From assembly GCF_022919215.1 (NCBI RefSeq), contig NZ_CP095046.1:2656501-2720500 (forward strand): a stretch of DNA of 64,000 nt. The letters are read 5' to 3'. Position 1 is the first letter of the stretch. Each line of letters opens with the position of its first letter. The notes under the pieces were generated by a model. The model ran no database searches. It had not been told where the DNA came from and was given only the letters and a program-made list of their open reading frames with translations. The translations under genes were made by a program, and so were the position numbers. This document shows positions 7,745 through 18,275 of this stretch, piece after piece. This DNA comes from Hymenobacter cellulosilyticus (GTDB lineage: Bacteria > Bacteroidota > Bacteroidia > Cytophagales > Hymenobacteraceae).

Positions 7745-7954
7745 CTACTGCGGCTCGTTTGCGGTAAGGCTAATTTTACGCAGCTGCCGGGCCAGCACGA
7801 CGGCGCGGCCTGTAGCAAACTCAACCAGCATGGAGCCGTTGCGGCCCCGGATGCATTTGCCCCGCTCGTCGCGCACGGCCTGGCATAGCTGCCCAACCAA
7901 GGGCGAATTGGTAAGACGGGCCAGCCGGTCGCCAAGGTAGCGGTAGGCACTCAT
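7745..7954 (-). CDS. Small conserved-looking hypothetical protein (69 aa)
   Basis: The frame starting at the ATG at 7954 overlaps the stop of the upstream membrane-protein gene (ATGA arrangement), which suggests translational coupling and supports this start over longer alternatives. The sequence is compact and basic, with a central CIRGRNGSMLVEF block typical of small Bacteroidota proteins of unknown function. No signal peptide or membrane segment. Third gene of a run with the FAD protein and multi-pass membrane protein. Confidence 0.6.
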   Translation of the reverse strand: MSAYRYLGDRLARLTNSPLVGQLCQAVRDERGKCIRGRNGSMLVEFATGRAVVLARQLRKISLTANEPQ

Positions 7955-8991
7955 GCGGTGACAGGTTTCGGACGCCGCCAGATAAAGCCGTCCAGCACGT
8001 AGTGCGTGGCCTGGGGCAAAGCCAGCAGCGGCACCAGCCAGGCCAGCAGCGTCGGGCTGCTGATGGCAGGCAAGTGCTGAAACCAGTTGAACACCGAGGC
8101 GTGTTCCCGCCACACCAGTCCGTCCCAGATGCCTTCCTCGAGGTAAGCCAGGCCAAAGAGCAGCCCCAGAAAGCCGACAATGGCGTAGATCTGGCCCAGG
8201 GGACGATGGGTGCCGGTGTTGGCAGCGGACCGGCTAATCCAGATCAGGGCCAGGTAGGGAATGCCGTGCGACACCACGTTGAGCAGGGTAAAGGCCAGGT
8301 CGCCGTTGAAATACACGATGCCGAAATACCAGGAAACCGCCGTGCCGCCCAGTAACAGGTTGCGGGGCCAGTTGAAGGTGCGGTAGAGCAGCCACTGGCG
8401 CGTTTCTTTGGCCAGATACAGCAGCAGCAGGGTCACATAAAGCAGGGTAGCCAGAAGCCGGCCGGTGGGCCAATCGTGCTGCAGAAAGTCGCCCTCCACG
8501 AACCAGGTAAAGTTGCGCGGTGCCGATAAGTGCCAGTAAACCAAGGGGTAAATAGTGGCGTAGTAGACCAGTACGGTGTCGAGCCAGCGGTGGGGCTGAG
8601 TAGGCTCCTGGCGCTGGTAGAGGCGCAGAAAACCGTATTGCTGCCGGATAAAGTGAAACACGGCCAAGTAGGCCAGGACCCGCCAAAACACCAGTCCGCC
8701 CAACTGGTGCAAGGCCACGCCGGCCGCGTAGCAACCCAGCGGAACCAGCCAGAGTAGGCGCTGCTGCTCCCGCCGCCGGGTCGAATCGAAGTAGGTACGA
8801 AACAGGGTGCTGTAGACGTGGGCCACATCAATGAACACGACCAGCACTACCCAGCCCACCACAGGCATCTGGGCGGAGGTGCGGAAATGAGTCGGTAGCA
8901 GCAAGACCAGCAGCAGTGCCACGAAGGGCGGCGACAACAGCCAGAGCCCGTCGAAGGCGGCGGAGCGAATCCAGGGTTGGGCTTGTCTCAT
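7951..8991 (-). CDS. Multi-pass membrane protein of unknown function
   Basis: The protein has 346 residues and about eight hydrophobic helices, for example PPFVALLLVLLLP and ATLLYVTLLLLYLA. Charged histidine- and tryptophan-containing loops lie between them, as in membrane-bound oxidoreductase-like proteins. I chose the ATG at 8991 because it overlaps the stop of the flavoprotein gene (ATGA, 8988-8991); a frame extension further upstream is antisense-like. The coupling to a Tat-exported flavoprotein suggests a joint role at the membrane. Function unknown. Confidence 0.75.
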   Translation of the reverse strand: MRQAQPWIRSAAFDGLWLLSPPFVALLLVLLLPTHFRTSAQMPVVGWVVLVVFIDVAHVYSTLFRTYFDSTRRREQQRLLWLVPLGCYAAGVALHQLGGLVFWRVLAYLAVFHFIRQQYGFLRLYQRQEPTQPHRWLDTVLVYYATIYPLVYWHLSAPRNFTWFVEGDFLQHDWPTGRLLATLLYVTLLLLYLAKETRQWLLYRTFNWPRNLLLGGTAVSWYFGIVYFNGDLAFTLLNVVSHGIPYLALIWISRSAANTGTHRPLGQIYAIVGFLGLLFGLAYLEEGIWDGLVWREHASVFNWFQHLPAISSPTLLAWLVPLLALPQATHYVLDGFIWRRPKPVTA

Positions 8992-10639
8992 ACCGCGCCG
9001 AGTAATTGGCGGGCCGCCCGGATGCCCTGGTAAAAGCCTTCTTCGAAAATGGACATACCGCTCAGGTCGGTGTGGGCAAAAAACAGTTTGTTGCGCAGGG
9101 GCCGGGCGGCCTGCTGCCGGCTTGGGTGCCATACCGAGCCAGGCGTGGGGGCCACCATGCCGTGGCCCCACACCCAGACGTCGGCCTGCTGCACCCGGGC
9201 CGTGATACCGCGGTGGGCTTTTTCCAGGTCGGCCAGAATCTGGGTGAGCCACTGGTCGTAGGTGTTTTTGTACGCGTTGCGGCGGGCCACCTGCGGTAAT
9301 TCTTCGGCCAGGGGCCAATAATAGGTAATCACCTTCTGCTGAGTGCCGAGCTGCACGTCCTGCTGATTGGCATTCACGTAGCCAACGGCTTTGGAGCCGT
9401 AGATGACGTTGTCCCAGCTAAGCGGGGCGCCGGGGCCCTGGGCAGGCCGTCGATGGTGAGGTTGGCTACCACCCAGGGGGCGCGGTGCAAGGTCAGCGGC
9501 ACGAGGCCGGGCGAATCCGGGAGCAGGCGTTGGGTTACAAACTGGGGCGTGGCCAGCAGGGCCTGCCGGGCTTCGACGCGGAGCGTTTCGTGGGTATGGG
9601 CATCGTAGGCCAGTACGCTCACGCCGGCGTCGGTTTCCTCCACGGCGTAAGCCAGCGTGTGGGGCAGAATGCCGGTAGCAGCCTGTTGGCGCAGGTGTTC
9701 AACCAAAAAGTTGTTGCCCTGGGGCCAGGTCAGCACGTCGCTGCTTTCGGCGTTGTGAGCCCGACCCTTGCGCGAAGCAAAGTAGTGAATACCAGCCCAG
9801 GCCGAGGTATGCTGGGCCGTGGTGCCGTAGTCGTCCTTGCAGCAGTAGTCGAGGTGCCAGCGCAGGTACTCGGAGGTGAAGCCGTGCTGCGCCAGGTAGT
9901 CGGCCAGGGAAATAGCGTCGAGCTGACGAAACTGCTCGTCCGTAGAGGAAGCGTCGACGGGAATCATGAAGGCGTCGCGGCCGTCGTGGCCTTTGGCTTG
10001 GCGGAAGTCCTCAATGAGCTGAAAGAAACGGGCTATTTGTTCCCTGTCAGCGGTTGGTACGCCCATTTCCGGCACGAGGCCGGTTTGCCAGTGCCCGTTG
10101 ATGTGCAGCCGCTCCTCCGGGTCGTGGCAGAGGTGGTACTCGTTGTAAATCGGCAGGCCGCTGGGCGAGGTGCCCGTAATAGTGCCGGTTTCGCGCAGAA
10201 AGTCCAGCAGCTCAGTATTGCGCGGGTCGGGCAGGGGTAGGTAGTGGGCGCCCCAGGGAAAGGCCGAAGTGGAATTGCGGCCGGCGGCAGAGTTGCCGCC
10301 CACCTGCTCATCGAGTTCCAGAAGCAACACGTTGTGCTGCCCGTGCCGGTGCAGCCACCGCTTAGCCGAAAGGCCAGCCACGCCGCCCCCGATGATAACC
10401 ACGTCGGCGCGCAGGGTGCGGGTAGGAGCGGGAAGCTGGCTGGGTTTCCAAAGCTTGTGGCCGGTGGCTTGGTTGGCTCCGCGCAAGGTACCCCGAATAT
10501 GAGCCCGCGCGGAGCCGGGGGCGCAGGATTCGAGCAGGCCCGGGCTTAGCAGCAGTCCGGCCACACCCAGGCCGGCGCGGCCGAGAAACTCGCGGCGGCC
10601 GGGCATAAACGGGCAGTGGGACGAATTAGCGGCAGACAT
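8988..10639 (-). CDS. Tat-exported FAD-dependent oxidoreductase, amine-oxidase-like (one apparent frame break)
   Basis: About 550 residues after restoring one base. The N-terminus carries a twin-arginine signal (GRREFLGRAGLGVAG) followed by LLESCAPG, which could also be a lipobox. Residues near 80 hold the Rossmann FAD motif VVIIGGGVAGLSA, then a GGNSAAGRN-like segment. The C-terminal part (NVIYGSKAVGYVN to FAHTDLSG) matches the usual FAD-binding end of amine-oxidase and phytoene-desaturase-type flavoproteins. The frame breaks at the G-run 9440-9442. It lies downstream of the polyamine-type operon on the same strand, so a periplasmic amine or polyamine oxidase is an attractive but unproven idea. 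Confidence 0.75.
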
Positions 10640-11019: not shown

Positions 11020-12584
11020 CTAGTGCGTGTAAGGCCCCCAGTCGTCCTCGAAGTAGCGGACCAGGGCCTGGTTGTTGAGCTGGTTGATTTCGGTGGGCAC
11101 TTCGGCCATGTCGGGCGGGAAGTGGAGCATTTCCTTCAGGGTAGCGGCCGTGAGGTAACGCAGGCCCTGGGGCAGCTTCCCGTCGCCGCGCCAGTGGCCG
11201 TTGCGGCCGGCCAGGACGTAACCCCACTCCCCGAAGGAAGGCACGTAGGTATGGTAGGGAATGGTGTGAAAACCAGCGGCCTGCAGGGTGTGGCTGATGC
11301 ACCAGAACGACTTCTGAGCCACGTAGGGCGAAGTACTCTGCACCACCATCAGGCCGCCGGGCGCCAGCAGCTTGTGCAGCTCAGTATAAAAGGAAGTGCT
11401 GTAGAGTTTGCCGATAGAGTAGTTGGACGGGTCAGGGAAGTCGATAACCAGCAGGTCGTAGCGGGTAGTGTCTTGGCGCACCCACTGGTAGGCGTCGCCG
11501 TTGATTACCTGCACTTTGGCGTTGTTCAGCGCGCCTTTATTGAGGGCCAGCAGCATTTGGTTGTGCTGAAACAAGTGGGTCATACCCGCGTCGAGGTCGA
11601 CGAGGCGAATCTGTTGCAGCTGCGGGTACTTGAGCAGCTCGCGCACGGCCAGCCCGTCGCCGCCGCCCAGCACCAGCACGCGCTTGGCCTTCGGCAACGC
11701 TTGCATGGCCGGGTGCACCAGGGCTTCGTGGTAGCGGTACTCGTCGGCGGAGCTGAACTGCAGGTTGCCGTTGAGAAAAAGGCGCAACTCCCGGTTGTTG
11801 CGGGTAAGCACAATGCGCTGGTACACGGTGCTTTTGCTGTAGATCACCTGGTCCTGAAACGCCATGGTTTCGGTGTAGGTCATGATACGCTCGGCGTAGC
11901 CAAAGCCGACGGCCAGCAGCACCAGAGCCCCGGCCATGATACCGGCAAAGCTGCGGCGGTAGGGGCGGGTTTCGGGGAAGCGGTACAAGGCCACGGCCGC
12001 TACCACCACGTTCAGAGCCCCAAAAAACAGGGAAGTGCGAATCAAACCCAACTGGGGCACCAGCACCAACGGGAAGATAAGCGAAGCCAGCAACGCCCCG
12101 ATGTAGTCGAAGGTGAAAACCCGGGAAACCAGGTCCTTAAACTCGTAGCGGTTTTCCAGAATCCGCATTAGCAGCGGAATTTCCAGACCCACCAGAATGC
12201 CGGTTAATCCCACTAACGAGTAGAGAATCAAGCGAAAGGAGCTGACGTACTCGAAGAGCACGAAGAGCAAGGGCGCCGAGAAACCGCCCACCAGCCCCAC
12301 CAGGATTTCGAGGCGGATAAACCACTTGAGCAGGGCCCCGTCGAGGTAACGCGACAACCAGGAGCCGATGCCCATCGAGAACAGGTAGGCCCCAATGATA
12401 GTGGAAAACTGCGTAACCGAGTCGCCGAGCAGGTAAGAAGCCAGGGTGCCGGCAATCAGCTCGTAGATCAGGCCGCAGGTGGCAATAACGAACACCGAGC
12501 CCAGCAGCAGGGCCGGCAGGTGGTCGGAAGTAGGCGCAGTGGTGCGGCGGCCCGCCGGGGCGGCAGCACCGGCTCGTTACCCAT
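11020..12584 (-). CDS. Membrane-fused spermidine-synthase-like protein (one apparent frame break)
   Basis: About 521 residues after restoring one base at the G-run 12557-12560, which joins the ATG at 12584 to the main frame. The N-terminal half has about seven membrane helices (GLIYELIAG onward). The C-terminal half is a SpeE-type Rossmann domain with VLVLGGGDGLAVREL, the acidic RLVDLDAG strand end, and VIDFPDPSNYS in place of the usual DxxDP catalytic loop. SpeE enzymes transfer aminopropyl groups from decarboxylated AdoMet; the membrane-fused branch is biochemically obscure. The start overlaps the DUF350 stop by eight bases, so the two are coupled. Last gene of the five-gene operon. Confidence 0.85.
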
Positions 12585-12792
12585 GAATGGCGGCGCTGAT
12601 AATCAAAGCAACCGAGAGCATAAAGGCCGCCGCCACAATGGCTAGGGCGTTGTTGTGCTCGTCCACGATTTCCTTCCAGAGCGTTTTGGGCGTGAGCTTG
12701 TCGATAAGCACGAAGCTGATGACCAGAATCAGGATGCCCACCACCGAGTAAACGATGGAGGCCGTGATGAGCTTGAAGTTGAGGTATTCCAT
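12577..12792 (-). CDS. DUF350 small membrane protein (YjfL-like)
   Basis: A 71-residue protein with two hydrophobic helices (SIVYSVVGILILVISFVLI and ALAIVAAAFMLSVALIIS) separated by a charged LTPKTLWKEIVDEHNNA loop, the layout of DUF350/YjfL units. Established context: DUF350 genes in many bacteria neighbour DUF4178/DUF2491 proteins and polyamine-related enzymes, and in E. coli the yjf operon with a glutathionylspermidine-synthetase-like gene. It has only one DUF350 unit here. It overlaps the SpeE-like start and follows the 62-residue membrane protein by 77 bases. Confidence 0.8.
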   Translation of the reverse strand: MEYLNFKLITASIVYSVVGILILVISFVLIDKLTPKTLWKEIVDEHNNALAIVAAAFMLSVALIISAAIHG

Positions 12793-12869
12793 GCGGTGAA
12801 GTGGTGAAGTAGTGAATGAGTGAGTAACTGAGTACTTGCGAGGAGGCAGGACCCGGTTTACTTCTTCAC

Positions 12870-13058
12870 TTATTTATGATAGTAGTTGGCGCGGCCCACG
12901 CGGCCGCTGGAGTGGCTGCCGGTGCCGTTGAGGTTTTCGGTGGTTTCGTTGTCGTCGCCCAGCAGGCGGATGCCGTTGAGGCTAACCCACACGTAGCCAC
13001 CGTAGATCAGCAGGGCTACCACAAGGTAGAGGCGGAGGTTGAGCAGGTCGCGGAGCAT
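12870..13058 (-). CDS. Small single-pass membrane protein (62 aa), unknown
   Basis: One hydrophobic helix near the N-terminus (LYLVVALLIYGGYVWVS) is followed by a polar acidic tail rich in Asn, Thr, Gly and Ser. The gene sits 13 bases after the DUF4178 stop, in the same direction and in the middle of the polyamine-type operon, which is the main reason to accept it. I do not recognise a family. It may be a membrane subunit specific to this lineage. Confidence 0.6.
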   Translation of the reverse strand: MLRDLLNLRLYLVVALLIYGGYVWVSLNGIRLLGDDNETTENLNGTGSHSSGRVGRANYYHK

Positions 13059-13071
13059 ATGGCAGCAGGGG

Positions 13072-14394
13072 TTAGTGCAGGTGGGGAGAGGGAAAATTGC
13101 TGTTGTCCCAGCGCTGTTGTTCGTGGTGGTGACGGCGGAAATACAGGATAGTGGGGTAAATCAGCAGGGCTAGCATGAACAGCAGCAGGTTGCTGGGCAC
13201 CCAGGGATTCTCGGTGATGGTGACCGAGAAAGTGACCTGCCGGTTGTAGTCGGTAGAAGGGTAGAGGTTGAGGTGGTAACGGCCGGGCGGTACCTGATCC
13301 AGGGTAGCTTCGGCGTCCACGCTGCCTTCCGACCAGCCGTAGCCATCCTCTACGCCGGAGTAGTGTTCAATGCTCTTGCTAAACTCAAAGCCCTGACCGG
13401 TTTGCTCGTTCACCAGGCTCACCGGCAGCTCCAGCCACGTATTGTTCACGGAGGTGTGCAGCGCGAAGTCGAGCACCGCCGGCCCGTCCTGGATATCAAA
13501 CGAGTTGGAAACCTGTACTTTGCTAGTGGCCTCGGTCATGGCTCCCGGGGCGCTGCCCACTTCACTGACGAACTCCTGGCTGAGCAGCTGCCGACGGGGC
13601 CGCACACCCACCATGACCAGTTCGGTGAGCAGGGTGAGAATCAGCAGCAGCAGCGTGAAGTTCTTCAGCGTGGACCAAGAGTTGCCGCCGGGCATCGGCT
13701 GCACCGCTCCTACGCCCTCCCGGTAGGGCAGCCGGGACATGGTCAGGCCGAAGGCCTGGGCAACCTGCTGGGGCTCCAGGTGCTCGGCCCGGAACCAGTG
13801 CACCGCCTGGCCCTTTACTTTTTCCTCCACCAGCATCCGGGGCGGGGCCACAAACTCGGTTACGGTCAGCCGCTCGTCTTCCAGAATGTTCCAGTCGAAC
13901 TCGCCTGCCGCGTACAGGATGCGGGGCTGGTACTTGTTGTAGATGTTAAACTTCGTGTCGCCGTCCAGGGCCACGCGGTTGTTGCCGGAGTAGCCGGACA
14001 AGCCCTTGTGCTGCTCGGCGGAAGGCTGGATAAAGGTCCAGTGGCCCTCGTACACGGCCAGCTGGGCGTAGCCGGTGTCGGGGTTGAAGAGCATGAATTC
14101 GAGCCAGCGGGCCGGGGAGCCGGCTTCCTTGCGCAGCATGTAGCCCATCACGCGGTAGAGCCGCCCGTCGGGCAGGGTGCCGATGCTGCCCAGCGGCAGG
14201 ATGGGCGCTTCCCGCGGTATATCCTGAAACGACTTGAGCCGCTCGGGGCTGCCGTTGGCCTGCTGCCGAAACAGGGTGTGACACTCCGGGCAGCCAAACA
14301 CGATGCTGTTGACCGGGTCGTAATACGTGAGCTGGGCCAGGCAACTGGGGCAAGCCACGCGGGCTTCGAGAGAGGTAACCTGTCCGCTACTCAT
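13072..14394 (-). CDS. Zinc-ribbon DUF4178 membrane protein
   Basis: A 440-residue protein. Residues about 13-40 form a zinc ribbon (ACPSCLAQL and FGCPECHTLF). Next is a DUF4178-type beta-rich domain with LPLGSIGTLPDGRLYRVMGY and WLEFMLFNPDTGYAQL. A membrane helix follows (FTLLLLILTLLTELVMVGV), then a large extracytoplasmic beta domain, a second helix (LLLFMLALLIYPTILYF) and a His-rich tail. The start at 14394 overlaps the SpeD-like stop (ATGA). DUF4178 is known from polyamine and PspA-type envelope neighbourhoods, but its activity is not established. It is the largest scaffold-like member of this operon. Confidence 0.85.
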   Translation of the reverse strand: MSSGQVTSLEARVACPSCLAQLTYYDPVNSIVFGCPECHTLFRQQANGSPERLKSFQDIPREAPILPLGSIGTLPDGRLYRVMGYMLRKEAGSPARWLEFMLFNPDTGYAQLAVYEGHWTFIQPSAEQHKGLSGYSGNNRVALDGDTKFNIYNKYQPRILYAAGEFDWNILEDERLTVTEFVAPPRMLVEEKVKGQAVHWFRAEHLEPQQVAQAFGLTMSRLPYREGVGAVQPMPGGNSWSTLKNFTLLLLILTLLTELVMVGVRPRRQLLSQEFVSEVGSAPGAMTEATSKVQVSNSFDIQDGPAVLDFALHTSVNNTWLELPVSLVNEQTGQGFEFSKSIEHYSGVEDGYGWSEGSVDAEATLDQVPPGRYHLNLYPSTDYNRQVTFSVTITENPWVPSNLLLFMLALLIYPTILYFRRHHHEQQRWDNSNFPSPHLH

Positions 14395-14744
14395 CGGGCC
14401 ACCTCGGTTTTCGTTAGTTCCTCGCCCTCGAAAAACCGCAGCGTTTCGGCGTAGAGCTGCCGCACGGTGGCGGAATTGTCGCGCTGGTAGTTCGACAGAA
14501 ACACGTCGAAAGTGGCCTGTCCGAACTCGGGCCAGGTGTGGATGCTCAGGTGCGACTCGGTGAGGCCCACCACGGCCGTAAAGCTGGCGTTGGGAAACGA
14601 GTGGTAAACTTCGCCCACTTTTACGAGCCCCCAATGGCTGATTTGCTGGTCGAAGAAGGCCTGGCAGGCGGCGGCATCCGTCAGACGGGCCACCGGGGCC
14701 CGAAACGTTGCCAGGATGTGAAGCCCGGGAGAGTAAGAATGCAT
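14391..14744 (-). CDS. speD: S-adenosylmethionine-decarboxylase-family protein (SpeD-like, Cys replaced)
   Basis: A 117-residue protein of the short bacterial AdoMetDC (class 1B) family. The self-processing site is present: TESHLSIHTWPE, with Glu63-Ser64, where Ser64 would become the pyruvoyl group, and His69. By alignment to the Thermotoga maritima enzyme the catalytic Cys83 in its TCG motif falls in FLSNY here, giving Ser84. Processing may therefore occur but ordinary AdoMet decarboxylation is doubtful. SpeD relatives that decarboxylate ornithine or arginine instead are known, so substrate should be left open. First gene of the operon, 34 bases or so after a predicted transcription start, and translationally coupled to DUF4178. 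Confidence 0.8.
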   Translation of the reverse strand: MHSYSPGLHILATFRAPVARLTDAAACQAFFDQQISHWGLVKVGEVYHSFPNASFTAVVGLTESHLSIHTWPEFGQATFDVFLSNYQRDNSATVRQLYAETLRFFEGEELTKTEVAR

Positions 14745-14785
14745 TCCGTAACTATCAGGCTAAAATGGGTAGAGCACGACAGTTT

Positions 14786-14816
14786 CAAACTTACCCAGAA
14801 TAGCCCAGTTGCCCAA
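14786..14816 (-). promoter_or_regulatory. Bacteroidota-type promoter of the SpeD-like operon
   Basis: On the minus strand TTG (14816-14814) is followed after 20 bases by TAAGTTTG (14793-14786), matching the Bacteroidota -33/-7 consensus TTG and TAnnTTTG. It lies in the gap after bshB1, so the operon can be transcribed independently of bshB1. Confidence 0.65.
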
Positions 14817-14826
14817 GCCGCGCCGG

Positions 14827-15545
14827 CTAGCGCAGCTGAAACAGGTCGTCGACGCCCAGCAGACGACGGCAGGTAAAGCCCTCGGCAAAGGGCACATTAA
14901 TGTACTTGCCACAGTCGCGGGCCTGGCCTTCGAGTATCTTCAGAAAGTCGGGCGAGGAAATGTAGGTCGAGGTCGGGTCCTCGTAGTCGGGGTGGTAAAA
15001 CTGGCTTTTAAACGCCGTTACGGCTTCTAGCTTCCGCTCCCAGTACTCCGTAATATCCACCACGATGTCGGGCTTGACGTAGGTGTTGTGAATTACCTGT
15101 AGCATCAGATCAGGCCGCCAGGGCGGCTGCAGCTGACCCTCATACCGGGTTTCAATCTTGGGCAGCCCCGAGAGAAACGCCGCGTCGTGGACCAGGTTGG
15201 CGGCCCGGCCGTGGTCGGGGTGGCGGTCCACGTTGGGGTTGGTCAGAATAATGGAAGGCCGAAAGCGGCGAATTACCTGAATAACTTGCAGCTGATGGGC
15301 CTCGTCGTTGAGAAAGAATCCGTCGCGCATGCCCAGGTTTTCGCGCACGTGCAGCCCCAGGATGCGGGCCGCGTCGGCGGCTTCCTCGGCCCGCAGCTCG
15401 GCCGAGCCCGGGTGCCCAGTTCCCCGCGCGTGAGGTCCACCACGCCCACGCGCCGGCCCTTGGCAATGTGCTTCATGAGCGTACCCGCGCAGCCTACTTC
15501 GGCGTCGTCGGGGTGGGCCGCAATCATCAGGATATCGAGCTTCAT
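14827..15545 (-). CDS. bshB1: Bacillithiol biosynthesis deacetylase BshB1 (one apparent frame break)
   Basis: About 239 residues after restoring one base in the C-run 15407-15409, matching the usual family length. BshB1 is a zinc-dependent LmbE-type deacetylase that removes the acetyl group from GlcNAc-malate in bacillithiol synthesis. The AHPDDAEVGCAG metal motif is at residues 9-20; VDRHPDHGRAA in the middle supplies further ligands. The ATG at 15545 gives the expected MKLDILMIAAHPDD start. The flanking 278 bases upstream are filled by repeats. Cytoplasmic thiol metabolism; no other bsh gene is in the window. Confidence 0.88.
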
Positions 15546-15622
15546 AGAGGGAGTTAAGCGGAAACTGGCGGTAAGATAAGCGGGAAGCAAACCGCAAATG
15601 AGAACAGAACTTCACGCGAAGC

Positions 15623-15785
15623 GTCATGCTGAGCCCAGGTCAAGCATCTCGCGGGCCGCCGTTGGTAGAAGCAACAACACAAAAAAGAACGTCATGCTGA
15701 GCCCAGTCGAAGCATCTCTACCGCCACAGTAATCGGATTACTACAGCACGCGAGATGTCTCGCTCAGGCTCGACATGACGTTCTT
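15623..15785. repeat. Dispersed palindromic repeat, two direct and one inverted copy
   Basis: GTCATGCTGAGCCCAG-type units start at 15623 and 15691, and an imperfect inverted copy occupies 15749-15785, so 15686-15719 can pair with 15753-15786 as a large hairpin. The sequence style matches intergenic repeats that I associate with Hymenobacter-like genomes. No coding frame. It lies between the monooxygenase stop and the bshB1 start and may act as a transcript end or RNA-stability element. Confidence 0.7.
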
Positions 15786-15823: not shown

Positions 15824-16849
15824 TTACGCCAGCACCTGAATCACGGCTTCCGAGAAACGCTCCATTTCCTCGAGTTGGGGGCTGCACTGGAGCAGGAACA
15901 GATCCACGCCCACGGCTTCGAAGGCGGCAATGCGCTCGGCTACCTGGTCGGGCGTGCCGGTCAGGCCGGAGCGCAGGCCCCGGTTCGACACGGAGTAGTC
16001 CTGCAGACTCACCTGGTTTTCGAGCTGGGTGCCGGCCAGCCACTGCTGGTAGTTTTTGTAGCCGGCGGCCGAGCCCTGCACGTTGGTAATGCGCTCCAGC
16101 TCCTTCTTGACCTCGGCATCGGTGTTGCGCACCACCGAGTAGGCCGCAACGCCGAACTTCATGGGCGGCAAGCCCAGCTTGTCGCGGCGCTGGCTCAAGT
16201 CCTGAATGCGGCGGCCGATGGCCTCAGGCTCGTCGCCGTGCATCACGTAGCCGTCGCACTGGGCCGCAATCATGTTTTTGGCCGCTTCCGACTCACCGCC
16301 GGCGTAGATAAACGGCCGGGGGCGCGACACGGGCTTGGGCTGCAGAATCGAGTCGGTGACCTTGTAGAACTTGCCTTCGAAGGTGAAGTGGTCCTGCTTC
16401 CACATGTTGTCCACCACGTGCAGCCACTCGGCGGTGCGGGCGTAGCGGTCGTCGTGCTGCTCGAAGTGCACACCGTACTTCTTGGCCTCATCCTGCCACC
16501 ACGACGACACCACGTTCAGCGACAAGCGGCCGTTGCTGATGTGGTCGATGTTGGCGGCCTGCTTGGCCAGCAAAGCCGGCGAGTGAAACGTAGGCCGCAC
16601 GGCCACCATCAACTCGATTTTCTTGGTCACGGCGGCCAGGGCGGCGGCCGTGCTCCAGGCATCCAGACTCGGGGCTTCCTCACCCTTGATGTCGTTCAGG
16701 TTCAGCTCGGCAATGAGCGACAGGTCGTAGCCCAAATCCTCACTGCGCTGGGCCAACGTCTTGACGTAGTCCCAGTCGGCGCGCATGTTCTCGTCTTCGA
16801 CGTTGCGCAGCCACCCGCCAAAAACGGGCATCCAATATCCGTACCGCAT
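15824..16849 (-). CDS. LLM-class flavin-dependent monooxygenase (SfnG/SsuD-like)
   Basis: A 341-residue luciferase-like TIM-barrel protein. Features typical of the FMNH2-dependent alkanesulfonate and dimethylsulfone monooxygenases are visible: RYGYWMPVFGGW at the start, AKQAANIDHISNGRLSLNVV, EQHDDRYARTAEW, the YAGGESEAAKNM phosphate-binding segment, and TGTPDQVAERI near the end. These enzymes use reduced FMN and oxygen to release sulfite from organosulfur compounds, but the barrel also serves other oxidations. It follows the ATP-grasp gene by three bases, so both are under the upstream SAM riboswitch. No flavin reductase gene is adjacent. Confidence 0.85.
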   Translation of the reverse strand: MRYGYWMPVFGGWLRNVEDENMRADWDYVKTLAQRSEDLGYDLSLIAELNLNDIKGEEAPSLDAWSTAAALAAVTKKIELMVAVRPTFHSPALLAKQAANIDHISNGRLSLNVVSSWWQDEAKKYGVHFEQHDDRYARTAEWLHVVDNMWKQDHFTFEGKFYKVTDSILQPKPVSRPRPFIYAGGESEAAKNMIAAQCDGYVMHGDEPEAIGRRIQDLSQRRDKLGLPPMKFGVAAYSVVRNTDAEVKKELERITNVQGSAAGYKNYQQWLAGTQLENQVSLQDYSVSNRGLRSGLTGTPDQVAERIAAFEAVGVDLFLLQCSPQLEEMERFSEAVIQVLA

Positions 16850-16852
16850 GAC

Positions 16853-17881
16853 TTAGTGAATAGAAGCCGCAACCGGCTGTTGAGCGTTTGAAACAGTAGT
16901 CTTGGCAACGGGCTGGGCAGCGGCAGTCGTCCCGATCTGGGTTTCCAGGTAGTCCACAAAGCGGGCGTAGGGGTCGAAGCCGACCACGTTCACGGCATCG
17001 GCCACGAAGTTGGACAGGGCGTTGATGTCGTAGAAAAGCACGTCGCCGGTCCGGTCGTCAATCAGGTACTCGATGCCGCCCACGTCGATTTTGGCGGCGG
17101 CCACGATGCGCTCCACGGCTTCGATTACCTCCGCTGGGGGCGTAAAGGCTTCCACCTGAATGCCCTTTTTGGGTGCTTCGGTCAGGCAGAACTCAGCCGA
17201 CTGCTCCTCGGGAATCTGGCAGATTTCGGCCGGGCACAGGTTGAAGCTTTCCCCGGTCGTAAACACCTTCATGGCGTAGAGAAACTTGCCGTCGAGGGTT
17301 TCCACGCGGTGAATGTTACCACCGCGGGGCGTCACGTACTCCTGCACCAGGGCCGTCTGGTCGATGCCCAGATCAATCTGGTTGGCTTCGACGGCAGCGT
17401 GAATACCTTCAATCGTGTCGAAGCGGATAATGCCCGCGCCACTGCCGCCAATGTTGACTTTCACCACAATGGGGAACTGCAGTTGCTGGGCGGCGTCGGC
17501 AATGCGGGAGGCGTGGTTGACCACGAAGGACTTCGGATATTTCAAGCCCAGCGAGGCAAACAAGGAAAGCTGGCGGGCCTTGTTGGTTTCGATGGCCGTA
17601 GCGGCCGAGCCGTTGATAATACGGGTGCCGATACGCTCCAGGTGAGTGGCAAAACCGGCCGTGTGGAAGATGCCCTGGCCGTGGCCGCGCAGGTAGGCGG
17701 AAGAGCTCATCCGGTTCACAACCAGGGAGTAGCGGCTCTCCTGTTCGGCCGGGTCAAAGAGGTGGTGGGCCGCGTCAATTTTCTCGTAGGGCAGGCCCCG
17801 GCGGTCAAGCTCGGCAAACAGGGGCTTAAACCATTCGGGGTGCTCGTAATAAATGCCAATCGGCTTTTGGGGCTGGGCCAT
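16853..17881 (-). CDS. RimK-like ATP-grasp ligase
   Basis: A 342-residue protein. The N-terminal pre-ATP-grasp part (IGIYYEHPEWFKPLF) is followed by an ATP-grasp fold: an LGLKYPKSFVV lead-in, the FPIVVKVNIGGSGAGIIRF nucleotide-binding segment, VQEYV, and a C-terminal VLFYDINALSNF magnesium site. ATP-grasp enzymes join a carboxylate to an amine or thiol through an acyl phosphate. I chose the ATG at 17881; a longer frame to 18001 begins with unlikely sequence. It is first in a two-gene operon with the flavin monooxygenase and sits about 400 bases behind the SAM riboswitch. Substrate unknown. Confidence 0.8.
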   Translation of the reverse strand: MAQPQKPIGIYYEHPEWFKPLFAELDRRGLPYEKIDAAHHLFDPAEQESRYSLVVNRMSSSAYLRGHGQGIFHTAGFATHLERIGTRIINGSAATAIETNKARQLSLFASLGLKYPKSFVVNHASRIADAAQQLQFPIVVKVNIGGSGAGIIRFDTIEGIHAAVEANQIDLGIDQTALVQEYVTPRGGNIHRVETLDGKFLYAMKVFTTGESFNLCPAEICQIPEEQSAEFCLTEAPKKGIQVEAFTPPAEVIEAVERIVAAAKIDVGGIEYLIDDRTGDVLFYDINALSNFVADAVNVVGFDPYARFVDYLETQIGTTAAAQPVAKTTVSNAQQPVAASIH

Positions 17882-18275
17882 GGGGTTGTAATAGAAAAAG
17901 AAGTGTGACAAGGGAAGGGCCCGGCCGCAGTAGCGCGGCAGACGGGTAACAGCCGCCGACAGCTTAGCCGCTCTAAAGACGCTTAGCGCCGAAAACCCCA
18001 CAGGCCAACCCGACAGACGCGCCGCAACGCAGCGGGAGCTGTTTGGTTAAAGCCAAGCAAGGCAGGGGACGCAGCAGGCTACAAGCCAGGGCGGCAAAGC
18101 AAAACCAACACAGCGGAAACTGGCTGGTCAGCCGGCAGGGGAGAAGTGGGCGTGACTAGCAACAACAGCCAGCGCCGGCCAGAGGCCAACAACAGACTGC
18201 GGCAGGAGCAGACTGGGGCTGGGCTACGAAAGCAGCGGAGAAGGCAGAAAAGTTGTTGGCAGTGTCCACGGCAAC
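17882..18275 (-). other. Long leader between SAM riboswitch and ATP-grasp gene
   Basis: About 390 transcribed but apparently non-coding bases. A 74-codon Cys-rich minus-strand frame begins inside the riboswitch aptamer and is not credible. Just after the aptamer an AAGTTG/CAACTT pair with a following T run (about 18275-18246 on the minus strand) could be a weak terminator in the expression platform. Confidence 0.4.

Follow-up and report, generated by a model that had tools for sequence, protein, structure and literature searches.

Aminopropyltransferases normally add a three-carbon group to the terminal amine of a short chain. Gene clusters that combine an S-adenosylmethionine (AdoMet) decarboxylase, a spermidine synthase fused to a membrane domain, and DUF350 were reportedly described by Li et al. 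2019 (Biochem J 476:2579), who are said to have proposed a role outside polyamine synthesis and to have left the acceptor open. Here, we analyze a locus of Hymenobacter cellulosilyticus found on the minus strand of a 64,000-nucleotide stretch of contig NZ_CP095046.1 (assembly GCF_022919215.1, positions 2,656,501 to 2,720,500; hereafter, the window). SpeD, a fused SpeE, and DUF350, by which we take the clusters of Li et al. to be defined, are clustered here too, and a candidate acceptor can be named, a 62-residue single-pass membrane protein that ends in lysine.

A second described relative is the CesT/Tir-PspA operon of Ravi et al. 2024 (PMC11237479), which contains a 7TM-spermine synthase, DUF350, DUF4178, and the ‘Ctha_1186’ lipoprotein. 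That paper speaks of ‘aminopropylation of other substrates’, citing Li et al. 2019, and mentions that a related variant of the operon has a polyamine oxidase. The first-pass annotation of the window had likened the locus to DUF350/DUF4178/polyamine neighborhoods, and its 7TM-SpeE with DUF350 and DUF4178 indeed matches that type. The two have in common 7TM-SpeE, DUF350, DUF4178, and a small membrane-anchored partner. However, PspA is lacking here, and SpeD, an exported FAD oxidase, and a polytopic membrane protein that we name MemP are added (CesT/Tir was not searched for as such); the partner is a single-pass protein, mostly of 45–70 amino acids, rather than a lipoprotein. Lipoproteins from four further loci (L237, L239–L241), presumably of the type that Ravi et al. 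describe, also end in lysine, a feature that the passages of PMC11237479 available to us do not mention.

The E. coli operons ygiBC and yjfIJKLMC resemble the locus in DUF350 (YjfL), the PspA-like YjfJ, a membrane-anchored DUF1190 partner with a Gly/Ser-rich tail, and a polyamine-handling enzyme. They differ in having an ATP-grasp ligase in place of SpeE and tails that end in Gly-Gly instead of lysine: YgiB ends in SMGG and YjfM in HWGG (the only two examined). The enzymes beside them (YgiC/YjfC), of ATP-grasp type, are named peptide-spermidine ligases in RefSeq and peptidylpolyamine synthetases in PMC12568646. They would join spermidine to a carboxyl end. No Pfam match to a GspS-type ATP-grasp enzyme or a DUF1190 partner was obtained among the eight window proteins scanned. 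More distantly, hypusine on eIF5A is a polyamine-derived group on a protein lysine, and microcin C carries an aminopropyl group from AdoMet on a ribosomal peptide, but both involve other enzymes, donors, or sites, and not an extracytoplasmic C-terminal lysine. The neighborhood is, in sum, partly published, while the candidate acceptor with its kept lysine is new; searches of open-licence papers, not all of which bore on these points, did not find the kept lysine, the small protein as acceptor, or the oxidase/MemP extension.

The tail protein and its C-terminal lysine

The 62-residue protein (hereafter, the tail protein) is the most telling part of the module, which the first-pass annotation missed, and its C-terminal lysine is kept across phyla. 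The lysine end of this small open reading frame (ORF), encoded between DUF4178 and DUF350, was first seen by eye and then tested by a blind pick, in which the ORF with the most hydrophobic segment in the DUF4178–DUF350 gap is chosen without using its last residue. For the cross-phylum set, named assemblies were scanned with an alignment of seven SpeE sequences and the best 80 of at least 588 confirmed loci were retained; module genes were called anywhere in the locus by iterated profiles built from the genus (E up to 1e-4). Among the 74 loci with DUF4178 upstream of SpeE, 73 gave an ORF, and 71 of the 73 picks end in lysine (57 as HK and 14 as GK). The two remaining picks (L124 and L166) are mis-picks, with the right ORF in the same gap ending in HK, and the locus that gave no pick (L130) has an ORF ending in HK. 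All 74/74 loci thus carry a small single-pass protein ending in HK or GK.

Lysine ends are rare outside this protein. Only 2 of the 27 unpicked ORFs in the same gaps end in lysine, namely the right ORFs of L124 and L166, and elsewhere in the module the residue closes 1/60 SpeD, 4/115 DUF4178, 0/71 DUF350, 3/75 oxidase, and 5/45 MemP sequences; it is not among the eight commonest ends listed for SpeE. The terminal lysine is encoded by AAA in 55 and AAG in 16 cases, followed by TAA (40), TAG (21), or TGA (10) and preceded by a residue with several codons; this mixture of lysine and stop codons implies that selection acts on the protein. In an alignment of 61 tail proteins (the window protein and those of 60 among the 71 picked loci, a number of them trimmed at the start), the start methionine and the last lysine are the only invariant residues, at a mean column identity of 21%. 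A profile search, with a profile that itself contains the lysine, found 2446 relatives at E up to 1e-3. Among the 120 matches listed, 119 new ones were checked, and 118 of these end in lysine (117 as GK), the sole exception being a shorter sequence that looks cut. The 120 listed relatives belong to no Pfam family and are named only ‘hypothetical protein’. In the genus, 11/11 aligned tails have RLLGDDNE following the helix and HK at the end, both without variation, and L063 has both as well.

Two features of individual tails can be recorded here. Tails of Acidobacteria and Gemmatimonadetes type share a VPKSVRDNPGAYRS-like stretch before a GGK/RGK end (L171, L178–L180, L184–L186, L188, L190, L193–L195, L198, and L199), and L178 has a tail in which the VPKSVRDNPGAYRS-like stretch comes with an HK end. 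In the Solitalea agri record (L130:5736-7898), the order DUF4178–tail–DUF350 occurs twice in tandem, and both tails end in SYYHK.

A second sample comprised 395 genomes of the phylum Bacteroidota, 29 of which (our own included) have a SpeE-7TM match to a distant query at E up to 1e-60. When ORFs were picked blind by hydrophobicity in the 25 loci with DUF350, 18 ended in lysine, 14 of them true picks (our own included); the other four (L229, L231, L233, and L235) are chance ORFs beside a longer lipoprotein, the pick rule having been made for the short form. By inspection, which was not blind (L246 was found by asking for lysine ends), 26 of the 28 other loci have a membrane protein or lipoprotein ending in lysine. 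DUF350 is likewise not seen in the two that lack one (L227 and L228), nor in one locus that does have a tail (L230/L243). In L237, L239, and L241, the layout is that of the published CesT-PspA type, with a 130-aa protein, PspA, a 182–183-aa protein, a lipoprotein, a long DUF350, and SpeE (PspA, DUF350, and SpeE were matched), and in L240, PspA comes after SpeE. The lipoproteins of these four PspA-type loci, with a lipobox recognized by eye, end in GGSGGK or GGFGK. Lipoprotein tails are exported and lie outside. Among five SpeE stretches from other families of the same order, three have DUF350 (L064–L066) and two have SpeE alone (L067 and L068); L065 (...RYGK) and L066 (...RGGK) encode a tail-like protein next to DUF350, located by searching for HK/GK ends.

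Gene order and distribution of the module

The module comprises seven minus-strand genes (Table 1). The five described in the first-pass annotation (SpeD, DUF4178, the 62-residue ORF, DUF350, and SpeE) were all found where it placed them, in an order that recurs in 11/11 relatives, and its description of overlapping or very close junctions is borne out: SpeD and DUF4178 share a 4-base ATGA overlap, gaps of 13 and 77 bases flank the 62-residue ORF on the DUF4178 and DUF350 sides, and the usual SpeE start overlaps the end of DUF350, as in 10 relatives. The operon had been drawn too short, since the run goes on past SpeE for two genes, to position 7951; the oxidase gene begins 380 bases past SpeE, and MemP overlaps it by 4 bases. 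The proposed Bacteroidota-type promoter was not confirmed. By eye, the upstream sequence is not common to eight relatives, and a sigma-70 scan of the region, which does not cover the Bacteroidota promoter type, gave 0 sites.

Table 1. Genes of the module in the window, in the order in which they are read
Feature	Position	Strand	Basis
SpeD-like S-adenosylmethionine decarboxylase, 117 aa	14391..14744	-	PF02675, 65.4 bits; aligned to solved SpeD
DUF4178 protein, 440 aa	13072..14394	-	PF13785, 41 bits (cut-off 25)
Single-pass tail protein, 62 aa, C-terminal ...YYHK	12870..13058	-	Pfam/NCBIfam: no match
DUF350 (YjfL-type) membrane protein, 71 aa, with two helices as judged from the sequence	12577..12792	-	PF03994, 52.3 bits
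SpeE-like aminopropyltransferase domain behind seven membrane helices	11020..12495	-	NCBIfam NF002956, 672.4 bits (cut-off 472)
FAD-dependent amine-oxidase-type protein, twin-arginine-like N-terminus	8988..10639	-	PF13450/PF01593
MemP (name given here), polytopic membrane protein, 346 aa	7951..8991	-	Pfam/NCBIfam: no match

We searched 25 genomes of the genus (our own and 24 others) gene by gene. Full-length SpeE is present in 12/25, and SpeD, oxidase, and MemP in the same 12, a count of SpeE that leaves out an additional fragment in G003 and, in four genomes, weak matches of ≤30% identity. DUF4178 is identified by Pfam in 11 of the 12 module genomes and at 53% identity in the twelfth (G017). 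The order SpeD–DUF4178–62-residue ORF–DUF350–SpeE–oxidase is found in 11/11 relatives (10 as 15-kb stretches, plus G017), with MemP following inside the stretch in 10/11 and lying ~8 kb further on in the remaining one. With all 11 same-genus relatives that have SpeE sharing it, the five-gene order is far above chance. A thirteenth genome (G012) holds broken remnants of SpeD, DUF4178, oxidase, and MemP; its DUF4178 remains adjoin the oxidase with frames broken (L030 8590-11576), and SpeE and the 62-residue gene were not found in this decayed module. The remaining 12/25 genomes lack the module. Two genomes have additional copies: G024 has a second SpeD, and G003 has a second SpeE fragment upstream of SpeD (L026:12578-12904), which lies in a 155-codon frame, is 88% identical to query residues 206–310, and represents a partial duplication.

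Beyond the genus, the best 80 loci span about ten phyla by record title (Bacteroidota, Pseudomonadota, Acidobacteria, Verrucomicrobia, Gemmatimonadetes, Leptospiraceae, Nitrospirae, Oligoflexia, Obscuribacterales, and FCPU426 are named), and many of the records are metagenome-assembled genomes. SpeD was called in 60, DUF4178 in 74, DUF350 in 70, the oxidase in 73, and MemP in 44 of them; many contigs are short, and the counts are lower bounds. In several loci outside Bacteroidota, SpeD stands not first but after the oxidase or MemP (L145, L149, L153, L160, L164, L167, L174, L182, and L189). The first-pass annotation would have counted its idea as refuted if the genes rarely adjoined. This is not the case: their pattern in the genus is all-or-none, and the set is met again in other phyla. 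Its statement that PspA is lacking holds for this branch: a phmmer search with the PspA of the same genome, encoded ~2 Mb away from the operon, returned no PspA-like ORF in the 80 stretches and found PspA in four sister operons.

Upstream of the operon on the same strand (15824-18001) lie what we take to be a luciferase-like monooxygenase-type gene and an ATP-grasp-type gene. Closer to the operon, a deacetylase gene at 14827-15627, presumably BshB1-like, is split, with its N-terminus and body in different listed ORFs. Within the module, the usual SpeE ATG (12584) and the SpeE body lie in different frames, with the first ~30 codons frame-broken, by comparison of the start with 10 relatives, and the oxidase occupies two frames (10639-9374 and 9377-8988), where the 10 relatives have a single open frame of 552–580 codons. 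Elsewhere in the genome, a PF01916 homolog and a decarboxylase-type gene are each in two pieces, unlike in most relatives (G000:C1:5040090-5041006 and 3030884-3031956). Because the BshB1-like gene and two unrelated genes are also split, indel errors of the assembly are likelier than decay as the cause of these breaks.

Enzymes and predicted topology

SpeE passes the membrane polyamine aminopropyltransferase family NF002956/PRK03612 and falls below the cut-off of the canonical soluble spermidine synthase TIGR00417 (128.6 vs. 249.55 bits). Its YHE motif, the two residues tested in GGGDG (a G and a D), and the Asp pair of DxxD, which we take to be active-site residues, are invariant in 81 sequences. 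By mean hydropathy over the same 81 sequences, seven helices precede the catalytic domain. The loops on the N-terminal side average 3.65, 2.72, 3.81, and 2.36 K+R each, and those on the other side 0.05, 0.86, 0.95, and 1.11. Since seven helices with inside-positive loops precede it, the catalytic domain is predicted on the outer face. A distant SpeE group (10 usable sequences of 12) shares the seven helices and the inside loops, the last loop being less clear (2.6 K+R, 2.2 D+E). The tail protein is likewise predicted to be N-in/C-out, with more net positive charge before its helix than after it in 45/71 sequences, equal charge in 19, and less in 7.

SpeD meets PF02675 (cut-off 25 bits) and falls below the canonical TIGR03330 cut-off (59.1 vs. 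75.65). Its processing Ser and catalytic His are kept in 60/60 loci, with the window keeping both; we assume the usual active-site roles for the Ser (pyruvoyl), the His, and a Cys considered below.

For DUF4178, described in the first-pass annotation as a zinc-ribbon protein, the zinc-ribbon match is weak, but C15, C18, C35, and C38 are invariant in 43 aligned sequences. An AlphaFold2 model (mean pLDDT 92.6) comprises a zinc ribbon and beta domain, a helix (237–264), a beta-sandwich (268–395), and a second helix (400–430); the zinc ribbon and beta domain are predicted inside and the beta-sandwich outside. The solved relatives of the oxidase are amine oxidases, matching only over the FAD-binding stretch. 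Its N-terminus fits a strict twin-arginine-type pattern in 46/68 sequences and a strict lipobox pattern in 6; an alignment of 42 sequences shows one Arg of this region to be invariant. In MemP, four His (58, 113, 242, and 330) and Asp/Glu residues are invariant in 37 sequences, which suggests a metal site; its AlphaFold2 model is helical and confident (mean pLDDT 91.1), and a comparison with solved structures gave no clear match. Taken as sequence signals, the SpeE loops, small-protein charges, lipoprotein tails, and oxidase N-terminus agree on the outer face.

A proposed lysine aminopropylation and its alternatives

The first-pass annotation had envisaged a membrane complex that decarboxylates a substrate and attaches aminopropyl groups to an envelope target. 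With the substrate taken as the source of the aminopropyl donor, this is the best general reading and is essentially in print; the annotation missed the FAD oxidase, MemP, and the tail lysine. We propose, tentatively and at a chance we put a little short of even, that the seven genes form an envelope module by which the tail protein is aminopropylated at its C-terminal lysine, on the outer face, and so acquires a spermidine-like end. SpeD would make decarboxylated AdoMet (dcAdoMet), and the seven-helix SpeE would move the aminopropyl group to the epsilon-amine of the lysine at the outer face of the cytoplasmic membrane. A C-terminal lysine fits as acceptor because its side chain presents such a terminal amine. 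With the aminopropyl group added, the C4 side chain would have the spermidine skeleton, so the protein would end in a tethered polyamine. The Gly-Gly tails of E. coli, beside their presumed spermidine ligases, fit this reading. DUF350 and DUF4178 may be scaffold or gate parts of the complex, and the exported FAD oxidase and MemP may act on the modification in this branch, by processing, sensing, or removing it. What the sequences show directly is the gene set, its conservation, the kept lysine, and the intact catalytic residues; the topology is deduced from them, whereas the substrate, the chemistry, the parts assigned to DUF350, DUF4178, the oxidase, and MemP, and the passage of dcAdoMet to the outer face are hypothetical.

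Several points weigh against this proposal. The greatest difficulty is that dcAdoMet is made inside, and we know of no route out; as a guess, it might be carried by the seven-helix domain, DUF350, or MemP. The SpeE topology rests on averages of hydropathy and charge, and a C-terminal lysine could serve other ends (e.g., peptidoglycan linkage). The column of T. maritima SpeD Cys83 is Ser in 33/60 loci, the window included, and Cys in 27/60. The Ser-type loci are Bacteroidota by title (three Flavobacterium loci keep Cys), and because the catalytic Cys is mostly Ser in Bacteroidota, SpeD activity is uncertain. SpeE also occurs apart from a tail: L064 has DUF350 and SpeE with no comparable tail (we did not count a secreted 159-aa protein with a KKK end, encoded 2.4 kb before DUF350), L067, L068, L227, and L228 show SpeE with neither DUF350 nor a tail nearby, and six of the 80 loci, all without DUF4178, have SpeE without DUF350 or a tail nearby, some of them on short contigs and two starting <1 kb before SpeE. 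One genome with a tail-less SpeE locus (G037) has a lipoprotein ending in GGSYGK at a separate DUF4178 locus (L032). Finally, the PspA-type stretches (L237, L239–L241) show no oxidase, MemP, or SpeD nearby, so these three are not needed for the tail.

Among the other explanations, the one we take most seriously, although we consider it unlikely, is that the tail lysine serves for docking or sensing (e.g., as a product mimic in the active site of SpeE or the oxidase), while the enzyme makes a small aminopropylated molecule. The intact SpeE active site, the loci with SpeE and no tail nearby, and the placement of the oxidase in the amine-oxidase superfamily are all compatible with this. Yet a terminal residue that never changes, at the end of a linker that varies freely, is the pattern to be expected of a reaction site, and the two kinds of tail end match two types of enzyme, lysine with SpeE and Gly-Gly with the ATP-grasp ligase. 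The same Gly-Gly ends bear on a rather improbable alternative, in which the lysine ties the tail covalently to peptidoglycan or some other polymer of the envelope and SpeE/SpeD modify a different target, such as a lipid or a soluble amine: a Gly-Gly end, as in the two E. coli counterparts, could not form such a link. The tail also accompanies DUF350/DUF4178 and SpeE (transpeptidase genes were not searched for). In favor of an anchor, Braun's lipoprotein is joined through its C-terminal lysine, the tails are predicted outside, and their Gly/Ser-rich linkers would suit one.

The donor problem would vanish if the catalytic domain were cytoplasmic, the tail C-in, and the same modification made inside, where dcAdoMet resides and needs no exporter, none being known to us. 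This we hold to be improbable, as seven helices with inside-positive loops put the domain outside, lipoprotein tails (lipobox by eye) are exported, and the oxidase has a twin-arginine-like start under a strict pattern in the majority noted above. An ordinary spermidine-synthesis operon that merely happens to be membrane bound could account for SpeD and SpeE in one operon and for the NCBIfam name, polyamine aminopropyltransferase. It is, in our view, very improbable: SpeE and SpeD both fall under the canonical family cut-offs, and such fusions reportedly failed to complement E. coli speE (Li et al. 2019). The distribution argues in the same direction. A PF01916 homolog, a possible homospermidine synthase, is present in 25/25 genomes of the genus with or without the module, including all 12 that lack it; general polyamine supply therefore seems to lie elsewhere than in the module.

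If the aminopropylation of the tail lysine is accepted for the sake of argument, a wider scheme suggests itself, which we regard as somewhat less likely still. A membrane aminopropyltransferase turning the C-terminal lysine of tail proteins into a tethered spermidine-like group would constitute a new and widespread class of extracytoplasmic modification, and DUF350 operons would then exist in two chemical versions with almost the same product, a SpeE type (lysine aminopropylation) and a YgiC type (Gly-Gly amidation with spermidine). The membrane-fused spermidine-synthase family is large, and in print its acceptor appears as ‘aminopropylation of other substrates’ (PMC11237479); the kept lysine narrows the question to one residue of a 62-residue protein. 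If true, this would be a new protein modification and would explain why DUF350, DUF4178, and PspA sit with polyamine genes, and SpeE-type and ligase-type operons, those of E. coli K-12 included, would be joined in one scheme of polyamine-capped membrane tails.

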